DNA of 64,000 nucleotides from contig JACTMJ010000009.1 in NCBI GenBank assembly GCA_014584705.1, positions 124,001 through 188,000 on the forward strand, read 5' to 3'. The notes under the pieces are model-generated. The model worked only from the letters and a program-made list of their open reading frames with translations, made no database searches and was not told the origin of the DNA. Source of the DNA: Acidobacteriota bacterium (GTDB lineage: Bacteria > Acidobacteriota > Terriglobia > Bryobacterales > Bryobacteraceae). A program made the position numbers and the translations under genes. Each line of letters begins with the position of its first letter. Within the stretch, counting starts at the first letter, position 1. Positions 32,039 through 44,142 of the stretch are shown here, piece after piece.

Positions 32039-33313
32039 ATGTCCGGTTTGTCCGACGCACCACTCGCTCAAGTCCCCGCCGCGGCCCCCAGGTCCGGAAA
32101 GGCGCTCGGTCTCATTTTCGCCACCATCTTCCTGGATCTTCTGGGTGTCGGCATCCTGGTGCCGGTTATCCCCTTCCTGGTGCGGCAATTCGATTCCGAC
32201 GCGCTGATGGTGGGGCTGCTTGCGTTGGTCTTCTCCGCGGCACAGTTTGTCTGCGCGCCTGCACTGGGTGTGTTCTCCGACCGTTACGGACGTCGCCCGG
32301 TGCTGCTGCTCAGCCTGCTGGGAACGGCCCTCGGCTACTTTCTCTTCGGCATGGCGGGGTCTCTGCTGGTTCTGTTCGTGGGACGGCTGATTGATGGAGC
32401 TACGGGCGGAAACATCAGCACCGCGCAAGCCTACATCGCCGATATCACGCCTCCGCAAGACCGGGCTAAGAACTTCGGGCTGGTGGGCGCCGCGTTCGGC
32501 CTCGGCTTCATCGTCGGACCCGCCCTGGGCGGATTGCTTGCCAATATCAGCCTCGCCGCCCCGGCCTACGCCGCTGGTTCGCTCAGCCTGCTCACTGTCG
32601 CTTTTAGCTACTTCTATTTGCCGGAGTCTATTGCGCCGGAGGCTCGCCGTGCCGCCCGCATTCGCTTTACGGACGTGAATCCGCTCACGCAGTGCCTCGC
32701 CGCCACCCGCCGCCCGGAACTGCTGCCGCTGCTCTCGGCCATCTTTTTTCTCAACTTCGCCTTCAGCGGGCTTCAGACCAATTTTGCGGTCTACACCTTT
32801 GACAAGCTGGGTATGGGTCCGGAGGCGAACGCAATGGTCTTCGCCTATATCGGGCTGATCGCCGTACTGATGCAGACGGTGGTCATCCGCCGCCTCACCG
32901 TTCGCTATTCCGACCGCGCACTCGCCGCCGCGGGGCTCGGCCTGATGGCGACGGGTTTTCTCGCAACCGCTCTCGCCTATGACGGCCCTACCCTCTATCT
33001 GGCCGCCACTCTCACGCCCATGGGCAGCGGACTTACGACTCCCACGCTGACCAGCATGCTCTCCCGCGAGGTCTCTTCCCGGGAACAGGGCTGGATTCTG
33101 GGCGCATCGCAATCCTTCGCCAGCCTTGCCCGCATCGCCGGCCCGGTCTGGGCGGGTCTCGTCTACGACTACATCAGTCAGGGCGCTCCCTATTGGACCG
33201 GCTCCCTCTGGCTCGTCGTCACCTTGCTGCTGCTCCTCTTCGCCGCCCGCCCCGAGGCCGCGGCCGGGAAGAGCCCATCCAGCGCGCAGCCCGTTGAGCG
33301 CCCGGAGAATTAA
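32039..33313 (+). CDS. MFS transporter of the DHA1/TetA-like drug efflux group
   Basis: 424 residues with about 12 hydrophobic helices. Motif A lies between helices 2 and 3 ([16 protein letters not shown]). The first helix contains [22 protein letters not shown], which is typical of TetA-like exporters, and helix 4 to 5 has [52 protein letters not shown]. Such proteins exchange protons for small hydrophobic molecules or tetracyclines. No TetR-type regulator is adjacent. The cytoplasmic tail is short and charged. Confidence 0.9.
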
Positions 33314-33380
33314 CGCGAACCCGTCGCTTCCCGTGACGACGCAATCCCCGGCCGCCTGGTCCATCAAGTCCCGCGATTGT
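33314..33380. other. Start of a gene-poor, hairpin-rich region
   Basis: From 33314 to about 33900 the sequence is rich in perfect inverted repeats (33499-33518, 33561-33583) and has no convincing coding signal. A minus-strand frame is open through most of it but has lost coding character. Confidence 0.5.
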
Positions 33381-34571
33381 TCAAGCACGGATTCTACAGG
33401 CGGTGATTCCTCGCGCAGCGGAGCGTCGATCTGCCCCCGAGGAAGATCTTTTGTCCGGTTTTTGCCAAAATCGACGCCCGCGGAAGAGTTGACTAGATCC
33501 TGGTAAGTGCTTACCAGGCAGCGGGTTAGATCGAAATGGCGACGGCGCGGAACGTCCGGATTGTCCGGATGCGATCCGGACAAACGATTGCTTCATCGCC
33601 TGTGGCTTGGAAATGGTGCGCAGGGTGCGACCCGCGGCCTTCCGTAGTTGACGAAATCCGGCGAGGGGCCGGCTGTTTGTTCGGTTGTCAAAGAAGCCCG
33701 CTTGTCGCGCCGTGCGCGGAGAGGCCGCGAGGACGCAGTTCTCCCCGGCGTCCTGATTATCCGGTTGCCGGGGCTGAATTCGAACGATGGGGCGGGCGGT
33801 GCGGGGAGGGTGCGCTCGTAAAGCGCTGAATCCGGGGTGGTTGCGGGATGACGGGAAATTTGCAGTTTTGGTGACCGGTCTTGGTGGAGAGCCGACATTG
33901 GCGTGGGACGCGGTGGTGTCCGATACGTCCGGTGTGTCTACCGTGTTCAGTGGGGACAATGTGTCCACTGCGTTCGGGGTGTCCGCGTTGTCCACGGTGT
34001 CTACTATGCATATGCCGTCTATGATGTCCAAGGTGCTTTCGGGTGCTGACGCAGCAGTGGCGGGGTTCGTCGGGTGCCGACCTTGCAGGGGGGAGGGGAA
34101 GGCGGGGTCCATCGCTTCGATCTCGGCGAGGGTTTGGCGGTAGGCGAAATCTTCGAGATTGTCCATGGTGTCCACGGTGTCCACGCTGTCCACAGTCTCT
34201 TCGGGGGCGGGAATGGACATGGGGAGCCAGTCGGCCTTGCCCTTGCGGGAGAGGATGGATTTGGCGGCGCGGTAGCGGAGCGCATCGGGGAGGGCTTCGT
34301 CGCGCTGGATGGAGTCGAGCTGGACGCGGGCGGCGGCGTGGATGGATTCGCCCAGGGCGAGGTAGCGGAGGAAGTCGGACTGGTGGCGCTCGCGTTTTGC
34401 TTCGCGCGGATTGGGCCGGGGCGCATTCTCTCTTGTTACGCACGCGCGGCGATCAGCGGCTGCGCTTGTGGCGGAACACGAAGCAGTCTTTACATTCCTC
34501 CGCCCCCGCTGCCTGACGAGCCGTTCCCGCCTGATTCGGAACTCGGGGACTTCGGGCCTGGAAGCTGTCAT
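33381..34571 (-). CDS. V-D-T repeat protein of unknown function, probably degenerate at the C-terminus
   Basis: 396 residues. I do not recognise the family. Residues about 65-120 (HQSDFLRYLALGESIHAAARVQ and following) look helical, have good GC-rich third positions and were once real coding sequence. Then come tripeptide repeats around V-D-T: ETVDSVDTVDTMDN, and later TVDNADTPNAV and NTVDTPDVSD. They match 9-bp DNA repeats (gtccacggt type, 34161-34196, four copies). From about 33900 down to the stop the translation becomes basic and proline/serine-rich and runs through two perfect hairpins, so the end is likely decayed. The repeats could vary in number between strains. Confidence 0.45.
   Translation of the reverse strand: MTASRPEVPEFRIRRERLVRQRGRRNVKTASCSATSAAADRRACVTRENAPRPNPREAKRERHQSDFLRYLALGESIHAAARVQLDSIQRDEALPDALRYRAAKSILSRKGKADWLPMSIPAPEETVDSVDTVDTMDNLEDFAYRQTLAEIEAMDPAFPSPLQGRHPTNPATAASAPESTLDIIDGICIVDTVDNADTPNAVDTLSPLNTVDTPDVSDTTASHANVGSPPRPVTKTANFPSSRNHPGFSALRAHPPRTARPIVRIQPRQPDNQDAGENCVLAASPRTARQAGFFDNRTNSRPLAGFRQLRKAAGRTLRTISKPQAMKQSFVRIASGQSGRSAPSPFRSNPLPGKHLPGSSQLFRGRRFWQKPDKRSSSGADRRSAARGITACRIRA
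33499..33518. repeat. 8-bp inverted repeat (hairpin)
   Basis: cctggtaa (33499-33506) and ttaccagg (33511-33518) are perfect inverted copies around gtgc. Confidence 0.5.
33561..33583. repeat. 10-bp perfect inverted repeat (hairpin)
   Basis: ttgtccggat (33561-33570) and atccggacaa (33574-33583) are exact inverted copies around a 3-nt loop. Two more tgtccgg/gtccgga copies lie just before it, at about 33450 and 33554. Confidence 0.6.
34161..34196. repeat. Tandem 9-bp repeat, four copies
   Basis: gtccatggt, gtccacggt, gtccacgct and gtccacagt follow one another. A more degenerate set with the same unit lies at about 33917-34031. On the minus strand the units encode the V-D-T repeats. Confidence 0.8.
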
Positions 34572-34813
34572 CGGAGACGTCTGGAGTGACGATCAACCGG
34601 CCTATGCTTCCAGTAGCCCGCTCCCGGTGAGGGAGCAGCGCGGATATCCATCTCTATTGGCGTCGAGGGCAGCCACATCCCCGGCGGCAGCCCTCCAGGG
34701 AGGCAGCCGTCTTGTGTCCGGAAAGTACGCCGCGGCTGATCTGATTGGCGTGGCACCTTCGCTTGTCTTTAGGAGTACGTTGTTCACATGGTGCCGGGAG
34801 AAGCGCCGCCTCA

Positions 34814-36352
34814 ATGACAGATCTATACGACGTTTTGCCCTATCCCACCAGGGCGGAGGTCCGCCTGCATATTGAGAACCTGCGCACCCGTGCGGCACTC
34901 AATGGGTTTACCGCCGCTCCGCCGGAAGCGGCCCGCGTGCTGGAGATAGGATGCGGCAATGGATTCAATCTGGCTCCGATGGCGGAATGCTATCCCGGCG
35001 CCACATTCATCGGGCTGGATTTATGCAATTCCGCGATTGAGCTCGGAACGAGATTGGCAGGGGAGGCAAACCTGCGGAACCTCGAACTCCGTTGCCTTGA
35101 CTTGCAGCAAGTTGACCCGGCGGCGATGTCCAGTGAGTTCGGAACGTTTGACTATGTCATCGCCCACGGCGTGTACTCCTGGGTGCCGGAAGACGTCCGC
35201 GAGGCAGTCTGGCGCCTGGCCCAGGCCGTGCTATCCCCAAACGGCATTTTTTATCTCAGTTACAACGCGCTTCCGGGATGGTATGCCGCCCAGATAGCCC
35301 GGGACTTCATAGGATTCATCCACAGGGATGGAGCATCCCGCGAGGACACTTTGCATCGCGCATGGGATGCCTTCGGCGTCTTCTCCGCTTGCACGGAAGA
35401 GCATCATCCGCTAGTGGAGGAGGCATCTCGCATTCGCAACCGACCGCAAAGCGTTCTGGCACATGACGAATGGAATGAGTGCTGCCAGCCGTATTATCTA
35501 TCCGAGGTGCTGGAACGGGCCAAGCAATACGGCCTCCGCTATGTTGGCGAAGCGGGAGTCCTCTTGCCGACGGATCTCAGCCGCCACGGCAGCGTTGCCG
35601 CTAACATCGCGGAGCTAGGCTCGGGAGACCCCCAACTGCAACTCCAGTTGCTGGATTTCACCGCAATGAGACGATTCCATGACTCCCTCTTTGCGCGTGA
35701 GACCAATCAGCCAACAACACACCAACGCGCAAACATGCTGCTGGATTGCTGGGCTCGTTCCGACATCCGCTACACCGAGACCGCTGCCGGGGGTGCCCGT
35801 GTCTACACTCATTCCGGCGGCGTGCGACTCACAAGCAGCCATCCCCTCATGTGCGCACTTGCCGATGCGTTGGAAGCAGCGGCCCCCGGGGCAGTGCATC
35901 TGGGCGAGTTCCGGGCAGACCGCAACCAGGGCCGGCTTCCGGCAAACCCCCTACAAACGGTCGAGTTTGGGCATCTCATTCTGCGGATGTTTGAGGGTGC
36001 GGCCCTGCGTCTTTGGATGATGCCGGCGCCAATGGCACGGAAGGTGAGTGACCGTCCGGAAGCCAGGGCATTTGCCCGCCAGCAAGTGGCATATGAAGGA
36101 CTTGCCGCGGATGCGTATCACGCATGTACCGCCGTAACTGAGCCGTGGAAACGGACTCTGTTTTGCCTCCTCGATGGTACGCGCACGCACGAGCAACTCG
36201 CTGACGAACTGGCGACCAGCGATGTGCCGTTGCCAGATGGAGCGAACTGCAATCTGCCCGAAGGGAGGGAGGCTGACCGTCTCACCTTCTTTCGGCGTCA
36301 CGTGCCGGAAGCGCTGGAGGGATTCCGCCGAAACGCAATCCTCTTCCGGTAG
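34814..36352 (+). CDS. Class I SAM methyltransferase with C-terminal methyltransferase-regulatory domain
   Basis: 512 residues from the ATG at 34814 (MTDLYDVLPYPTR). SAM motif I is RVLEIGCGNGFNLAPMA (41-57), with FIGLDLCNSAIELG as the acidic post-I strand and FDYVIAHGVYSWVP for motif II. The C-terminal half fits the methyltransferase regulatory domain PF10119 (QQVAYEGLAADAYHACTAVTEPWKRTLFCLLDGTRTHEQLADEL). The target is not known for this family. It precedes the giant helicase-nuclease gene by 385 bp on the same strand, within the accessory island. A regulatory link is possible but unproven. Confidence 0.88.
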   Translation: MTDLYDVLPYPTRAEVRLHIENLRTRAALNGFTAAPPEAARVLEIGCGNGFNLAPMAECYPGATFIGLDLCNSAIELGTRLAGEANLRNLELRCLDLQQVDPAAMSSEFGTFDYVIAHGVYSWVPEDVREAVWRLAQAVLSPNGIFYLSYNALPGWYAAQIARDFIGFIHRDGASREDTLHRAWDAFGVFSACTEEHHPLVEEASRIRNRPQSVLAHDEWNECCQPYYLSEVLERAKQYGLRYVGEAGVLLPTDLSRHGSVAANIAELGSGDPQLQLQLLDFTAMRRFHDSLFARETNQPTTHQRANMLLDCWARSDIRYTETAAGGARVYTHSGGVRLTSSHPLMCALADALEAAAPGAVHLGEFRADRNQGRLPANPLQTVEFGHLILRMFEGAALRLWMMPAPMARKVSDRPEARAFARQQVAYEGLAADAYHACTAVTEPWKRTLFCLLDGTRTHEQLADELATSDVPLPDGANCNLPEGREADRLTFFRRHVPEALEGFRRNAILFR

Positions 36353-36737
36353 CGATCCCACGAACTTGCTGACGAATTGCCTTACGACTCAAGGGCCCAG
36401 TTTCGGTGACAGGCTCGTGGACTGCACCCTTCGACTGAGACACGGAACTTTGGAGAATCAGCGACAGCGAAATCCACTTGACCCTCGGTGCCAATCAGAG
36501 TGCCGCACCTGCACCCGCTTCCGTGACATTCTCATGGCCGAGCGTGAACCCGCCGGTCACACCCGTCAGTAATACCGAACTCGACCAAATCACGCGGCAA
36601 TCCATATGCTCCAGAACGTGACACGAGCCAAAGGTGTTTTCTCTTCATGCCGATGCGCGGTACGCACACTCTCACACCGCGCGATATTATGGACGATTCA
36701 TATTTAATCCTTCTAAGCAAGCGAGCCTTGGCAGCCA
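36353..36737. other. Intergenic region before the helicase-nuclease gene
   Basis: 385 bp without a supported gene. The last 80 bp are AT-rich (TATTAT at 36685-36690 and catatttaat after it), the likely promoter zone of the downstream gene. No strong -35 is visible. Confidence 0.55.
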
Positions 36738-39700
36738 ATGCAAGTGCGTGTGCCAGACCCTGGGGGCAATGTGAACGAACAGTCAGAAGAGCCGGAAAGC
36801 GGCAAAAACGCCAGTGAGAGCGGCGTCAAGATTGCAGCGAATATCGCGCCGAGCTTTGCCTACGCATCTTTCCAGAACTCGGTGTCCGTCGTCCGTTCCA
36901 TCTCCATCGAAAACGGTACTGGCGAAAGCCTGCAGTCATGCACCCTGGAACTCCAAACCACGCCGCCTTTCCTCCGGCCAAAGACTTGGCGTATCGATGG
37001 CATTCTCGCTGGCGGTCGTCACGTGATCGCGGACCGCAAGGTAAGCCCGGATCCATCTTACCTGGACAGTCTGGACGAAACAGAGTCCGGTGAACTCACA
37101 TTCACACTCTATGCGCGAGAGCTGAAGGTGAGCGAGCAGCATGTCCCAATCCGCCTCCTGGCGCGTGATCATTGGGGCGGGGTGCGCGAGATGAATGATC
37201 TGCTGCCCGCGTTCGTCATGCCCAACGATCCGGCGGTGGCGCAGGTGCTGCGATCCGCGGCGGAGCAATTGGCGGCGCACGGTTACTCATCGGCCCTCGA
37301 CGGCTACCAGAACAATGATCCGCAACGCGCGTTCCTGCTGGTCGCCGCCATCTATGCGGCGATTGCCGGCCTTGGCATCCACTATGCGGAACCTCCAGCA
37401 AGTTTTGAAGTACGCGGCCAAAAAGTACGGCGACCGTCCACGGTCCTCAGTCAACGCTTGGGGACATGTCTGGATCTTGTACTTCTTTTCGCCGCCGCTT
37501 TGGAAGCAGCCGGCCTCTTTCCCGTAATTCTCCTCTACAAAGATCACGCGAACGCGGGGGTGTGGCTCAAGAGGCGCACATTTGCGCGCATGACCGAGCC
37601 CGACCCGATGGAGGTTCGGAAGGCACTGGCGTTGCGAGAATTGGTGATCTTCGAGACCACGGTAATCACGCAGCGGCCGCCGGCAACGCTCGATCATGCG
37701 CGGAATCTCGCGGAGCACATGGTGAGCGAAACGGAGCCCGGCAGGTTCCAAGCAGTGATCGACATCTACCGGGCGCGCGGCGCCGGCATCACGCCGCTCG
37801 CTTCCCATTCTCCACTGGCTTCGGACGGGGGAAGCGATACCGGGGGGACGCCGTTGCCCTTGCCCGCGCCACCCAGCTTTCCGCGGTTGCCCATGGAGGA
37901 ATGGGACGAAAAGCCAACAACCAGCGCGGGCCGTATCCTTCGATGGAAGAAGAAGCTGCTCGACCTCTCGCTGCGCAATCGGCTGCTGAACTTCGTCCAA
38001 ACAAAGAAGACCGTTCCATTTATTTGCACGGATATCCCCTATTTGGAAGACCGGTTGGCTGCCAGAGCTAGCATTCGCATCATTTCCCTGCCTGACCAGA
38101 TGGCGCTCGGCGACCGGGATGCCGCGCTGTATCAGGAGACGAAAGGGAAAGATGTCGCACGAGCCTTCGCCATCGAAGCGCTGCACCGGGATGAATTGAC
38201 ATCGGCACTTGGCGTCAAGGACCTGGAGGGACGGCTGGTGGATATCTACCGTCAGTCCCGCAGCGATCTGGCGGAGGGCGGGGCCAATACGCTCTTCCTG
38301 GCCTTTGGATTCCTGCGTTGGAAGCGGCAGGCCACGGATGAAAAAAGCTATCGAGCTCCGCTGCTATTGGTTCCCGTTAAACTTGATCGCCGTAGCGCTT
38401 CCTCCAGTTTTTCCCTGAAGTTTCATGAAGACGATCCAAGATTCAATGCGACACTGCTGCAGTTCCTGGAGCATGAATTTGATTTGAAGCTGCCGCAGTT
38501 CCACGCCGAACTCCCGCGCGATCAAGAGGGCATAGATGTGCCCCTGCTTCTGGACCAGATGCGTCAAGCCATCCGGGATGTACCCGGTATGGAGGTCGTG
38601 GATGAATCGGCTCTCTCCACGTTTTCCTTCGCGAAGTTCCTGATGTGGGAAGACTTGGAGAAGCACACGGACGCTCTTCGGCAGAACCGTGTTGTCAAAC
38701 ACCTGATTGATTCTCCTGATGCTGCGTTCCCTGCCGGTGGAACCTTCGTGGATGCGGCGAAGTTGGACCATTCCTATGATCCGGCCAAAATCATCTCCAT
38801 CCTCCCGGCGGATTCGTCACAACTCGGTGCAAGTATCGCGGCAGCAGAGGGGCATGACTTTGTCCTTGTGGGCCCGCCGGGTACGGGTAAGAGCCAGACG
38901 ATTGCCAACATGATCGGCCACTGCCTCGCCCTCGGCAAGACGGTGCTGTTCGTTGCCGAGAAGACGGCAGCGCTCGACGTTGTGTATCGGCGTCTGCGCG
39001 CAGCCGGGCTGGGCCATCATTGCCTGGAACTTCACTCGAACAAAGCAGACCGCAAGGGTTTTCTCAGACAGCTCAAGCTCTCCTGGGAAAGCGGCATGAA
39101 TCGCACCAATTCGGAATGGGCAGAGATCAACGCGCGCCTGAGGATTCCGCGCGATCAGCTCAACGGCTATGTCCGAGCCTTGCACCGCACTTATCCGAAC
39201 GGAATGACTCCGTATGCCGCTTTGGGCATTGCGCTACGCGAAAAGGAGATATCCGTACCGGCTCTGTCGTGGCCAGACCGCGACGCGCACGATCAGACCG
39301 CACTACGCGGCCTGGACGAGTTTGCCGATGAGTTAGGCCGTGTTTTTGGGGCAGTGACGCCCTCGCCAAGTCTCCGGGTGGTAGACGCCGGTGAATGGTC
39401 CATAGCCTGGGAACAGAGCCTTATTGAGGCTGCGGAAGCTTTGCGTACCAGAGCGGCGATAGCCGCAAACGCTCTTCATGAGTTCCTGCCAATGATCGGC
39501 CTTCCCGCGCGGAAGGATGCACCCCTCGGTAAGTTGGAGGCACTCGCGGACTTTGCGGCCTTGCTGGTAGAAGGAGAGGGACTGGACCTTCGGATTGCCT
39601 TGGACGCTGAGTTCGCTCAGATGCAATCTGAACTGAGGTCTCTTGAGCTTGCCGTCGAAACCTTTCGAAACGCTGAAGCCTCTCTAGCCGCACGATACCC

Positions 39701-42700
39701 AAGAGCGGTGCTGAACCGTCTGCCCGCATTCGATCTTGATCGGCAATGGAGGGAAGCTTCGGGGTCCATGTGGCCGATGAGTTGGTTTGCGCGGCGCCGC
39801 GTACAGAAGCTGCTGCAAAGCTACACCGAGCAAGGCGAGGCGGTGCCCGCTAACGACCTGCCTTTGCTTTGCCGGATGCGCGAGATGCAGCAGGAGACGG
39901 CGGCGTACAAGCTGGCGCGGATGCCGGTGGGGTTTGCCGGACTCGATACAGATTTGGCGGCCGTCAGGGATCGTTTTCTCCGCTCCGAGCAGTTGCGCAC
40001 AGCCATGGCAACCGTCGGCGGGTCACCGGCGGAGCTTGCCGATATCGCTCGTGCGATTGCGCCCGCTCTGGGAGGCGCGGCGAACGACCCTCTCCGCGGA
40101 CCCGCTGGGCACTTCCTCCGCGCATGTAGGTCGTTCCTGGACGCGGTAAAGCGGTTCGGGACACTGGCGCAGTCCTCCCTGATCGGTCCCTCCGGAACCT
40201 CCTCCTTCGGCGATGCCGCGGAAGCGGCAGACAGTCTCATCGGCGTTCGGAACGAGTTGCGCGACTGGACCCTGTGGTGCCGCAAACGCAGAGAAGCCCG
40301 GTCTTTGGGGCTCGGCCCTCTCGTAGACGGGCTGGAGTCCGGCGCGGTTCAACCCGCCGGGTGCGTCCGGGCGTTTCGCCTGTCTTATGCCCGCTGGTGG
40401 CTGGACCTCGTCCTCCAAAGTGATCCAGCCCTTCGCGAATTTCGACAGTTTCAGCACGAACATGCGATCGACAGCTTTCGCAAACTGGACGATCTAGTGC
40501 GGGCCAGCGCAACGCAGCGTGTGATGAGTGGAATCTCTCACGGGTTGCCCGGCATACAGAACGTCCCGCGTAACTCCGAACTGGGCCTGGTGCGACACTG
40601 GATGGAGTTGCAGCGTCCCTCCCGTTCCATCCGGGACATGATCAGTTCGATGCCCTCCAGCTTCCCGAAGCTGGCGCCCTGTATTCTAATGTCCCCCCTG
40701 TCGATTGCTCAGTACCTACCCGTAAGTCAAACACGATTCGATGTCGTGATTTTTGACGAGGCATCCCAGATCACTACATGGGATGCGGTGGGAGCCATCG
40801 CGCGAGGGAAGCAGACAATCATTGTGGGCGACCCAAAACAGCTTCCTCCGACCAATTTCTTCGGAACGAACTTCGACAGCGACGAACAAGACATTGAGGA
40901 GTACGAGCAGGATCTGGAAAGTATCCTTGATGAAATGAGGGCGTCCGGGATTCCGTCGCGGGATCTGCGATGGCACTATCGCAGCCGAAATGAATCGCTC
41001 ATTGCATTCTCAAATCACCACTATTACGACGATCGGCTCGTCACCTTCCCGTCCCCATCGATCGACGACCGGGCGGTACAACTCCGGCACATCGTGAAGA
41101 GTATCTACGACCGAGGAAAGAGCCGTACAAACCGAGTGGAAGCAGAGGAAGTGGTCAAGGAAGCGGGTGGCCGCCTGCTGGGTTGGCTCTCGCTGCCGGA
41201 GGAAAACAGACCCACTCTCGGGGTGATCACATTCAATTCTCAGCAGCAATCCCTTATCCAGGATCTCCTTGACGACCTGCGGCGGAAGAAGCCCGAACTG
41301 GAGTGGTTCTTCAGCGAGGATCGAATTGAGCCGGTGATCGTCAAGAACCTCGAAAATGTGCAAGGCGACGAACGCGACGTCATCCTCTTCTCGCTCACCT
41401 TTGGCAAGGACGCCGCCGGAAAGTTCTCCATGGATTTCGGTGCGGTGAATCGTCTCGGCGGTGAACGCCGTTTGAATGTTGCCGTTACCCGCGCACGTCA
41501 GGAACTGATTGTCTTTTCGGCGTTCACCGCCGATGAAATCGACCTGCGTCGCACGGCATCCATCGGGGTCAGGGACCTAAAGGCCTTCGTGGACTTCGCG
41601 GACCGCGGCGCCATTGCGCTTGCCGCTCAGAGCCAGGAGCCGATGGGCGGGTTCGAATCTCCGTTTGAGGAAGCCGTCGCCGAGGCGTTGCGGCAGCAAG
41701 GTTGGCAGGTTGTACCGCAGGTTGGCATCTCTGGATTCCGTATCGACCTTGGCGTTCGCCATCCCGATCTGGCAGGTGCTTATCTTGCCGGTGTGGAATG
41801 CGACGGCGCCACTTACCACCGTTCCGCCACAGCGCGAGATCGCGACAAGGTACGTGAACAGGTGCTTCGTGGCTTGGGTTGGAATATCGTACGCGTCTGG
41901 TCTACCGATTGGTGGTTCAATAGCCAAGCCGCTATTGCGCGGCTGAACGCGCGTCTGAACGAATTGTTAGGCGATAGCAGAAGGAAGATGGGCGCGGCTC
42001 CCCAGGAGAAGCAACCTGTCCGCTGGGAATTGGGAGACGAGATTGCGCCGGGGCTGGCTTTACCCCCCAAGTCCGAGGATGACAACTCGGAGACTCTGCT
42101 TGTAGCATCAGGAGGCGGCGAAGATGCGACAGCCGAAGAGGAACTGAACGAGATATTGGAAGCCCTTTCGTTGCCGTCGGCGCCTCCCGCTCCGTCAAAG
42201 GTTGCCGGACCTTGTTACCAATCCGCGGATCTCAGCCACTTCGCCGCCGATCCGGACCGGTTCTATGAGGCGGAATATGATCCAACCCTGTCATCAATGA
42301 TTGCCGCGATCCTTGATGCAGAGTCCCCCGTCAGGGAAGACATCTTGTGCCAGCGGATCGCTCGCTCCCATGGATGGTTGCGCACCGGCAACCGGATCCG
42401 GGAGCGCATATTGTCGAGGCTGGGCGATGCAGACAGAGTTACCGAATCGAGCGGTGTATTTCTTTGGAAGAAGGGAAGCGTGTCGGAAGTCATCCCCTAT
42501 CGCGAGCCCGCCGACAGCGGCTCACGGCGAAGCATTCTGGAATTTGCCCTCGCGGAATTGGCGGGAGGAATCCTATCCAACCGGGACGTTGTCAATGCCT
42601 CGGACCCCGTGCTTGCATTGGCGCGGTGGATCGGCGTGGATCGCCTGACTGCGACATCCCGTGCGCGACTAAGAGAAGCATTCCAGCGCGCCAATGTGCC

Positions 42701-42716
42701 GCTCGATGCCGACTAG
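36738..42716 (+). CDS. Giant defence-type protein: transglutaminase-like + DUF4011 + SF1 helicase + Vsr-like nuclease + DUF3320
   Basis: 1992 residues. Domains in order: a transglutaminase-like segment (about 155-370) with C244 in RLGTCLDLVLLFAAALEAAGL and a later histidine in DHANAGVWL; DUF4011 (about 395-700, RILRWKKKLLDLSLRNRLLNF); an Upf1/SF1 helicase with Walker A GPPGTGKS (712-719), Walker B DEAS (1340-1343) and motifs WHYRSR, VQGDERDV and NVAVTRAR; a Vsr/MTES_1575-type PD-(D/E)XK nuclease with D1670, E1687 and D1689 (VECDGATYHRS and RDKVREQVLRGLGWNIVRVWSTDWW); and a DUF3320 winged-helix-like end (about 1845-1905). All helicase and nuclease residues look intact. I recall this architecture as the single-gene antiphage system Hhe. 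A GTG at 36771 is an alternative start. Confidence 0.88.
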   Translation: MQVRVPDPGGNVNEQSEEPESGKNASESGVKIAANIAPSFAYASFQNSVSVVRSISIENGTGESLQSCTLELQTTPPFLRPKTWRIDGILAGGRHVIADRKVSPDPSYLDSLDETESGELTFTLYARELKVSEQHVPIRLLARDHWGGVREMNDLLPAFVMPNDPAVAQVLRSAAEQLAAHGYSSALDGYQNNDPQRAFLLVAAIYAAIAGLGIHYAEPPASFEVRGQKVRRPSTVLSQRLGTCLDLVLLFAAALEAAGLFPVILLYKDHANAGVWLKRRTFARMTEPDPMEVRKALALRELVIFETTVITQRPPATLDHARNLAEHMVSETEPGRFQAVIDIYRARGAGITPLASHSPLASDGGSDTGGTPLPLPAPPSFPRLPMEEWDEKPTTSAGRILRWKKKLLDLSLRNRLLNFVQTKKTVPFICTDIPYLEDRLAARASIRIISLPDQMALGDRDAALYQETKGKDVARAFAIEALHRDELTSALGVKDLEGRLVDIYRQSRSDLAEGGANTLFLAFGFLRWKRQATDEKSYRAPLLLVPVKLDRRSASSSFSLKFHEDDPRFNATLLQFLEHEFDLKLPQFHAELPRDQEGIDVPLLLDQMRQAIRDVPGMEVVDESALSTFSFAKFLMWEDLEKHTDALRQNRVVKHLIDSPDAAFPAGGTFVDAAKLDHSYDPAKIISILPADSSQLGASIAAAEGHDFVLVGPPGTGKSQTIANMIGHCLALGKTVLFVAEKTAALDVVYRRLRAAGLGHHCLELHSNKADRKGFLRQLKLSWESGMNRTNSEWAEINARLRIPRDQLNGYVRALHRTYPNGMTPYAALGIALREKEISVPALSWPDRDAHDQTALRGLDEFADELGRVFGAVTPSPSLRVVDAGEWSIAWEQSLIEAAEALRTRAAIAANALHEFLPMIGLPARKDAPLGKLEALADFAALLVEGEGLDLRIALDAEFAQMQSELRSLELAVETFRNAEASLAARYPRAVLNRLPAFDLDRQWREASGSMWPMSWFARRRVQKLLQSYTEQGEAVPANDLPLLCRMREMQQETAAYKLARMPVGFAGLDTDLAAVRDRFLRSEQLRTAMATVGGSPAELADIARAIAPALGGAANDPLRGPAGHFLRACRSFLDAVKRFGTLAQSSLIGPSGTSSFGDAAEAADSLIGVRNELRDWTLWCRKRREARSLGLGPLVDGLESGAVQPAGCVRAFRLSYARWWLDLVLQSDPALREFRQFQHEHAIDSFRKLDDLVRASATQRVMSGISHGLPGIQNVPRNSELGLVRHWMELQRPSRSIRDMISSMPSSFPKLAPCILMSPLSIAQYLPVSQTRFDVVIFDEASQITTWDAVGAIARGKQTIIVGDPKQLPPTNFFGTNFDSDEQDIEEYEQDLESILDEMRASGIPSRDLRWHYRSRNESLIAFSNHHYYDDRLVTFPSPSIDDRAVQLRHIVKSIYDRGKSRTNRVEAEEVVKEAGGRLLGWLSLPEENRPTLGVITFNSQQQSLIQDLLDDLRRKKPELEWFFSEDRIEPVIVKNLENVQGDERDVILFSLTFGKDAAGKFSMDFGAVNRLGGERRLNVAVTRARQELIVFSAFTADEIDLRRTASIGVRDLKAFVDFADRGAIALAAQSQEPMGGFESPFEEAVAEALRQQGWQVVPQVGISGFRIDLGVRHPDLAGAYLAGVECDGATYHRSATARDRDKVREQVLRGLGWNIVRVWSTDWWFNSQAAIARLNARLNELLGDSRRKMGAAPQEKQPVRWELGDEIAPGLALPPKSEDDNSETLLVASGGGEDATAEEELNEILEALSLPSAPPAPSKVAGPCYQSADLSHFAADPDRFYEAEYDPTLSSMIAAILDAESPVREDILCQRIARSHGWLRTGNRIRERILSRLGDADRVTESSGVFLWKKGSVSEVIPYREPADSGSRRSILEFALAELAGGILSNRDVVNASDPVLALARWIGVDRLTATSRARLREAFQRANVPLDAD

Positions 42717-42948
42717 CGGAAGCCTTCCGAGGGCTGCCTACGCCGAAATCCGTAGCGAGTCTAGGCGCAAACTGTGCTGGTGATTCTCGGTGTGCGATTC
42801 AAGAGCCTACGTCGAGATCAGTGCTAGGACTGGCCTCGAACTGCAGTTATCGGCTGTGCGGTTCTGACGAGAACTGCCTCCCGATTCAGGACGTTTCTTC
42901 GCAGACCAAGTGACACGGTGTCCGAAAACCCACTTCTATTCCACTACG

Positions 42949-42972
42949 AATCGGCCGGCCAGTCGGCCGATT
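42949..42972. repeat. 9-bp inverted repeat (hairpin)
   Basis: aatcggccg (42949-42957) and cggccgatt (42964-42972), perfect, with a 6-nt loop. It lies about 230 bp after the helicase-nuclease stop and has no T-run, so it is a weak terminator candidate at best. Confidence 0.45.
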
Positions 42973-43282
42973 ATGCTCACGAACCAAGCCTCTTGTTCGG
43001 AATACTTTTCGATTCTGCTGTCCAATTCGCGGATTCTGAAGTGTGCTGATCCGAATTCCGGAATCGATTAGTGGATGTTTCCGCGAAGGAACAGATGCAC
43101 CCGGTTAGCCCTCGAACCGGCGTGATGGAGCGATGGATGCGTTGGAGCGACTCCGTATTTGGGGCGTGCGGGAGAAGGGCTTATCCATGGGGATCAGCGG
43201 TCTTGCTCTTCCACGTTTGCAGTTAGCGGTTGGCGAATCGATTTCCGGTGAGCAGGGGCGTTGGTTTGGGGCGGTGCGGAGG

Positions 43283-43314
43283 CGTCACACCGGACAAACG
43301 GGGCCGGTGTGACG
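43283..43314. repeat. 11-bp perfect inverted repeat (hairpin)
   Basis: cgtcacaccgg (43283-43293) and ccggtgtgacg (43304-43314) are exact inverted copies with a 10-nt loop. It is the most stable-looking hairpin of this gene-poor stretch. Confidence 0.6.
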
Positions 43315-43577
43315 TGGTCTTGCTTGCGATCGCGGATTGCTTTTCCCTGGGCATACGCCCGGGGCTGGCGTTTGTCGCCCGTTGCGCTTTCGGCGCGGGG
43401 ACATGGAGGGAGCTCTTGTGCTGCTTGATCACGATGCTCTCTTCGGAAGCGATTGCTGGAAAGGGGAAGGGGGCCGTCGCTTGATTGGTGGGGGAATCGC
43501 CGATGGGGAATGGGCTCGCGAGGGGGCGGATGCTGGTGGCAGCACTGACGTGGTGCGGCGGGTTGGGCGGCGCAGAT

Positions 43578-43598
43578 CCAGGCGTATAAAGCGCCTGG
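43578..43598. repeat. 7-bp inverted repeat (hairpin)
   Basis: ccaggcg (43578-43584) and cgcctgg (43592-43598) are perfect inverted copies around tataaag. Confidence 0.4.
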
Positions 43599-43921
43599 CG
43601 AATGGGCGGCCTGTCGCTGACGCGACGGTTCGCTACCGGTGGCCGGGGTAGCGGATTGCAAATGCGGGGCCGGTGTGGCGTTGTGCCGCCCTGTTGCGGA
43701 AAGCCCGAAACTGTCAGCGAAATGGGCATCTGGGAAAGTGGGGCATTCCATCTCAACCCGAGAAACCGCCAACGCCGTCGCTCCGGAGAGTCTAGCGATT
43801 TCATTCCGACAGGCTCGGTGGCTGCCCCTCAAATCTTCATGGTGAAGAAGCCATCCAGGCAAGACGTCACAGAACTTCGGACGATAACGGGACTTCCGGA
43901 CCTGAAACGAATCGCTCCGCG

Positions 43922-43927
43922 TATAAT
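43922..43927 (+). promoter_or_regulatory. Consensus -10 box placing mop mRNA start at or next to its ATG
   Basis: TATAAT at 43922-43927 ends 8 nt before the ATG at 43936. Transcription would begin at about 43934-43936, so the mRNA should be leaderless or nearly so. No Shine-Dalgarno is present, which fits. No good -35 is visible. Confidence 0.55.
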
Positions 43928-43935
43928 GACGGCAT

Positions 43936-44142
43936 ATGCCACTGTCAGCTAGAAACCAACTGAGCGGGAAGATCATCGAGATCCAGTATGGGGATGTCCT
44001 GGTCCATGTGAGCGTGCGCGTTGGCAAGAATGTGATTGAGAGTGTCATTACACGCCGCAGCGCGGAAGAACTAGGGCTCAAGAAAGGCGACGTCGTGAAA
44101 GCGGTCGTCAAGTCCACCGAAGTGATGCTCCAGAAGGATTGA
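43936..44142 (+). CDS. mop: Mop/molbindin-type molybdate-binding protein
   Basis: 68 residues, a single Mop/TOBE domain: MPLSARNQLSGKIIEIQYGDVLVHVSVRVGKNVIESVITRRSAEELGLKKGDVVKAVVKSTEVML. The S-A-R-N-Q-L-x-G-x-I opening and L-G-L-K-x-G-D turn are diagnostic. Mop proteins assemble as hexamers that store or buffer molybdate (or tungstate) in the cytoplasm. The gene is convergent with a dihaem peroxidase gene 20 bp away, and a secreted molybdopterin-fold protein lies next to that, so the cluster may concern molybdenum. No mod transporter genes are present. Confidence 0.92.
   Translation: MPLSARNQLSGKIIEIQYGDVLVHVSVRVGKNVIESVITRRSAEELGLKKGDVVKAVVKSTEVMLQKD

Follow-up and report, generated by a model that had tools for sequence, protein, structure and literature searches.

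The window analysed here, a stretch of 64,000 nucleotides from a bacterium of the Acidobacteriota, carries a very long gene on its forward strand (36738–42716, Table 1), which starts with ATG and runs in a single frame without any internal stop to encode a protein of 1992 aa. Comparison with the NCBIfam profiles identified this protein as a full-length match to the equivalog NF058533, "anti-phage protein ProA" (2127.5 bits, curated cut-off 1500; residues 42–1969 aligned to positions 2–1903 of the 1903-position profile), and PADLOC returned PDC-S37 as the top family (1184 bits). The next PADLOC family was Hhe (538 bits), a system reportedly described by Gao et al. in 2020, and the NCBIfam profile for Hhe (NF042953) gave 776.4 bits, below its curated cut-off of 2000. 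Based on these scores, with ProA above and Hhe below the cut-off, the protein is a member of the ProA/PDC-S37 family and not of Hhe. The original prediction of a defence-type protein is supported by the NF058533 match and the PADLOC run, but it had placed the protein among the Hhe-type antiphage systems. In favour of this placement, DUF4011, the SF1 helicase and the Vsr-like nuclease are held in common and the Hhe profiles do match the C-terminal two thirds of the sequence; however, the N-terminus is made up of a beta-sandwich and a transglutaminase-like domain, without a HEPN domain by Pfam, and the scores fall short of the Hhe cut-off in NCBIfam (776 vs 2000 bits) and of PDC-S37 in PADLOC (538 vs 1184 bits). 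We have therefore rejected the Hhe assignment and regard an Hhe-type system as extremely improbable. Our literature search found no paper describing ProA itself or its mechanism, nor one from which the NCBI name "ProA" derives; a link to "Prometheus" of DefenseFinder is our guess from the name alone. The protein is of a known kind, in that it belongs to a named family with an architecture that has already been described.

Table 1. Features of the proA locus (coordinates in the window; residues of the 1992-aa protein).
Feature	Residues	Coordinates	Strand	Basis or remark
Segment that the syntenic blocks of two same-genus genomes leave unmatched at the nucleotide level		33314..43929		Holds proA and a methyltransferase gene
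proA / PDC-S37 family gene	1992 aa	36738..42716	+	ORF; NF058533 2127 bits; PDC-S37 1184 bits
Ig-like beta-sandwich	27–142	36816..37163	+	AlphaFold pLDDT mostly >90; VIA Z
Transglutaminase-like papain-fold domain	145–350	37170..37787	+	AlphaFold mean pLDDT 88.6; VIA Z
Codon of predicted nucleophile	C244	37467..37469	+	Cys in 87/87 and in 10/10 further relatives
Codon of predicted catalytic His	H270	37545..37547	+	His in 87/87 and in 10/10 further relatives
Codon of predicted third catalytic residue	E306	37653..37655	+	Glu in 87/87 and in 10/10 further relatives
DUF4011	406–577	37953..38468	+	Pfam PF13195, 157 bits
SF1 helicase core, first part	691–830	38808..39227	+	Pfam AAA_11/AAA_19; Walker A GPPGTGKS with K718
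Variable helicase insert	831–1270	39228..40547	+	Least conserved large region
SF1 helicase core, remainder	1271–1605	40548..41552	+	Pfam AAA_11/AAA_12; Walker B D1340/E1341
Vsr-like REase, MTES_1575 family	1643–1740	41664..41957	+	Pfam PF18741, 122 bits; E1644, D1670, E1687
DUF3320 winged-helix region	1840–1889	42255..42404	+	Pfam PF11784, 68 bits

From the N- to the C-terminus the domains are an Ig-like sandwich, the transglutaminase-like fold, DUF4011, the SF1 helicase interrupted by a large variable insert, the Vsr-like PD-(D/E)XK nuclease and the DUF3320 winged helix. The three predicted active sites (protease-like, ATPase and nuclease) are all intact at the sequence level. The Pfam matches to DUF4011, AAA_11/AAA_12, the MTES_1575 REase and DUF3320 are all far above the curated cut-offs. 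In the alignment the insert has a mean identity to its relatives of 0.36, compared with 0.69–0.72 for the helicase core. No HEPN domain was matched by the Pfam profiles in the 1992-aa protein, in which the insert was seen by sequence alone. The set of domains originally predicted for this single gene (transglutaminase-like, DUF4011, SF1 helicase, Vsr-like and DUF3320) is confirmed by Pfam and, for the N-terminus, supported by AlphaFold and structural matches, and the residues named at that time (C244, K718, D1670 and E1687), together with the Walker A and B motifs (the latter with D1340/E1341), were correctly chosen. The view of the N-terminal domain as something unusual and added is not supported: since the ProA model begins near residue 42, this region is a part of the family rather than an addition, it is found in all aligned relatives, and the combination has been known since 2013, when Anantharaman et al. 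(PMC3710099) described the MTES_1575-type giants as HEPN-transglutaminase-SF1 helicase-Vsr-wHTH proteins.

Residues 1–395 were modelled by AlphaFold with a mean pLDDT of 89.9. Structure comparison of the model revealed that the sandwich resembles Spo0M and the C-terminal beta-domains of transglutaminases (VIA Z 10.7 to 5cl2 and 10.3 to the C-terminal domain of factor XIII). Because the sandwich dominated the fold search with residues 1–395 and made it uninformative with respect to the catalytic domain, residues 145–375 were modelled separately (pLDDT 88.6). This second model resembles the putative protease 3kd4 (VIA Z 9.5), PNGase (3esw, 9.2), TglA (9crn, 9.1), LapG (4fgp, 8.5), Rad4 (8.3) and transglutaminase 2 (8.2). 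Foldseek returned no match to it at E ≤ 0.001, a profile of the N-terminal part found no match by sequence among PDB chains, and Pfam DUF553 was detected in the N-terminal part alone only below the threshold (E 0.0024). With the Foldseek search empty at E 0.001, the assignment rests on the many matches within the superfamily, on the order of the catalytic elements and on conservation. In the AlphaFold model C244 starts a helix (244–257), H270 starts a strand (270–276) and E306 lies just past another strand (302–305). Thus, the model supports a transglutaminase/PNGase/LapG-type papain-like fold for residues 145–350 with a predicted Cys-His-Glu triad, and the transglutaminase fold anticipated for residues 155–370 finds its counterpart in the superfamily matches of the 145–375 model and in the invariance of this triad.

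Conservation of the predicted active sites was assessed in an alignment of 87 sequences (83 counted at the nuclease residues), and 10 additional relatives, the most distant at ~33% identity, were checked apart. C244, H270 and E306 are invariant in both sets (97/97), the ATPase residues K718, D1340 and E1341 are present in all 87 aligned sequences, and the nuclease residues are slightly more variable, with D1670 kept in 79/83 and E1687 in 82/83. No active site of the ProA family is conserved more strictly than the N-terminal protease-like triad, which shares this rank with the ATPase. Rad4/XPC proteins are among the structural matches (Z 8.1–8.3), which could indicate that the transglutaminase-like domain serves in binding rather than catalysis, as theirs does, but we find this improbable, given that Cys, His and Glu remain fully conserved even in the most distant relatives. 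A different possibility gives the role of main effector to the transglutaminase-like protease: phage DNA would be sensed by the helicase-nuclease, and the protease would then cut proteins of the phage or the host, leading to abortive infection. A triad that is conserved more strictly than the nuclease Asp would agree with such a role, as would the protein-cleavage line of defence that Anantharaman et al. (2013) proposed for related giants. We nonetheless judge it unlikely: the nuclease is nearly invariant too, as E1687 illustrates, no substrate of the protease is known, and where nuclease-protease pairs occur elsewhere, the protease serves to activate the nuclease (PMC12799240).

Two kinds of variants were seen among the relatives. 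In four of them the nuclease Asp (the D1670 column) is replaced by A or P, with the protease triad kept; and about ten (L054, L055, L061, L073, L081, L083, L085–L088, L101) stop near residue 1750, just past the nuclease, and lack DUF3320.

The nucleotide homology of two same-genus genomes (G003 and G004) to the window stops at 33223–33274 and restarts at 43930–43936, although the left and right syntenic blocks are located on different contigs in both genomes, which precluded the demonstration of a clean empty site. The "gene-poor island" of the original prediction is better described as a segment of ~10.6 kb (33.3–43.9 kb) unmatched in these two genomes; the neighbours that were tested included no further defence gene. 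A simple scan found no promoter-like site upstream of proA. Within the same segment, just upstream of proA, lies a gene (34823–36352) for a methyltransferase that also bears a regulatory domain (MethyTransf_Reg, PKMT_2nd-like) and is not evidently a DNA methyltransferase. Fragments of a dispersed repeat flank proA (34323–34425, 36417–36465 and 43269–43662), and the stretch downstream of the gene matches the genome at 32 places, itself included, often near contig ends. The host genome contains a second DUF4011 helicase-Vsr gene (L159:792-6227, on contig C31), which is cut into two frames by one in-frame TAG (C31:2304-2306). Its best PADLOC family is PDC-S37, nothing in it matches the N-terminal part of the ProA protein from the window, and it carries copies of the proA-flanking repeat fragments near its own borders.

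No proA orthologue was found in four same-genus genomes. At the strict threshold, a search of 299 class genomes gave a full-length match in the host and in none of the 298 others, and in 297 genomes of the phylum two others have matches that include the N-terminal part, with 43–45% identity. The nearest relatives (57–60% identity) are alphaproteobacterial, from rhizobia and sphingomonads, and a quick tree placed the host gene within a clade of 34 rows, almost only from Alphaproteobacteria, with a support of 99. The closest kin are alphaproteobacterial, yet no alphaproteobacterial (plasmid-borne) 16S copy exceeds 80.0% identity to that of the host, which makes it likely, as far as sequence comparison can tell, that proA was gained by horizontal transfer. 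The gene is accessory. Some ProA relatives are plasmid-borne, and some are located near multiubiquitin/ThiF genes, i.e. beside other defence-like operons. Full-length or near-full-length relatives with an intact triad (32–40% identity) are also carried by predicted viral contigs (IMG/VR, L160–L165) and by one unverified phage record (L016). Taken together, the gene very probably belongs to the ProA (PDC-S37) family, acts against phages as a single-gene system and was gained horizontally, with Alphaproteobacteria as the probable source.

Neighbourhoods were compared for 56 non-redundant ProA relatives with at least 2 kb of flank on each side. Our analysis revealed that 29 of them have an SbcD/SbcC-like (Mre11-Rad50-like) pair near proA, confirmed with Pfam; 20 of these pairs are directly downstream on the same strand, and the others are arranged differently and mostly represent a YhaO/YhaN-like version. 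The pairs form two sequence classes and occur in several orientations (e.g. L015:15924-19675, L017:13964-17706 and L019:14040-18802). The association may already be known. Neither a pair nor a remnant of one was found in the window, and a search of the host genome, run without a positive control, gave no match to the SbcC-like partner. A 35% match of the window to this partner was disregarded, as it corresponds to an overlapping reading frame inside the proA gene of a relative. Such frequent neighbours suggest a DNA-end-processing partner for the ProA relatives, and since the partners of about half of them are absent here, the lone proA might be incomplete or differently used.

The same neighbours could also be taken to mean that ProA is not a defence protein at all, but a helicase-nuclease of DNA repair or genome maintenance that works with SbcD/SbcC; moreover, every Pseudomonas aeruginosa has a DUF4011 gene in its core genome, at the border of the defence hotspot cDHS1 (PMC10250203). 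The patchy spread of proA within genus, class and phylum, the carriage of relatives by plasmids and viruses, the horizontal acquisition and the lack of the partner genes at the window locus speak against this reading, which we consider quite improbable. We also put forward, as a tentative and rather doubtful proposal, that a modular system is built around ProA, whose transglutaminase-like protease, helicase and nuclease would cooperate with a dedicated DNA-end complex of the SbcD/SbcC (Mre11-Rad50-like) or YhaO/YhaN-like type; the window gene would then be a partner-free form, the pair dispensable and the protease the conserved catalytic heart.

Judging from the sequence, the most likely role of ProA is in defence: it would target DNA independently of modification, with a catalytic protease-like domain acting as regulator or as a second effector. 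Having no methyltransferase partner for self-marking, it would sense a DNA state characteristic of phage infection, such as ends or replication intermediates. The winged helix, DUF4011 and the variable insert would recognize the DNA, the helicase would translocate it at the expense of ATP, and the Vsr-like nuclease would cut the phage DNA. The transglutaminase-like domain, predicted to be probably a working cysteine protease or amidase, could gate this machine (e.g. by self-cleavage) or add a second attack, on protein. In the nuclease-protease pairs of Hachiman and AVAST the protease activates the nuclease (PMC12799240), and these unrelated enzymes offer a precedent, by analogy, for an activating protease in ProA. 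Most noteworthy are the strict conservation of the protease triad and the SbcD/SbcC-like genes found near the relatives. With the window gene, a giant protein of probable defence function is at hand in intact, single-gene form.

Among known systems, the protein resembles the ProA/PDC-S37 family in its full-length match above the cut-off, in the same domain order and in its identity to the rhizobial and sphingomonad members; it differs in that its host lineage seldom carries the gene and in that this copy is without the SbcD/SbcC-like pair of about half of the relatives. Hhe carries a HEPN domain, whereas the window protein, which shares DUF4011, the SF1 helicase and the Vsr-like nuclease with it, has the N-terminal sandwich and transglutaminase-like domain and no evident HEPN. 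Hachiman and AVAST (PMC12799240) likewise unite a protease and a nuclease within one defence system, a working analogy only, as they use a trypsin-like protease and a separate MBL-type pro-nuclease rather than transglutaminase-like and Vsr domains in one chain. The MTES_1575-type giants possess a HEPN domain, which Pfam does not detect in the window protein, but they have in common with it a transglutaminase-like peptidase, an SF1 helicase, a Vsr-type REase and a wHTH/DUF3320 region within a single chain.
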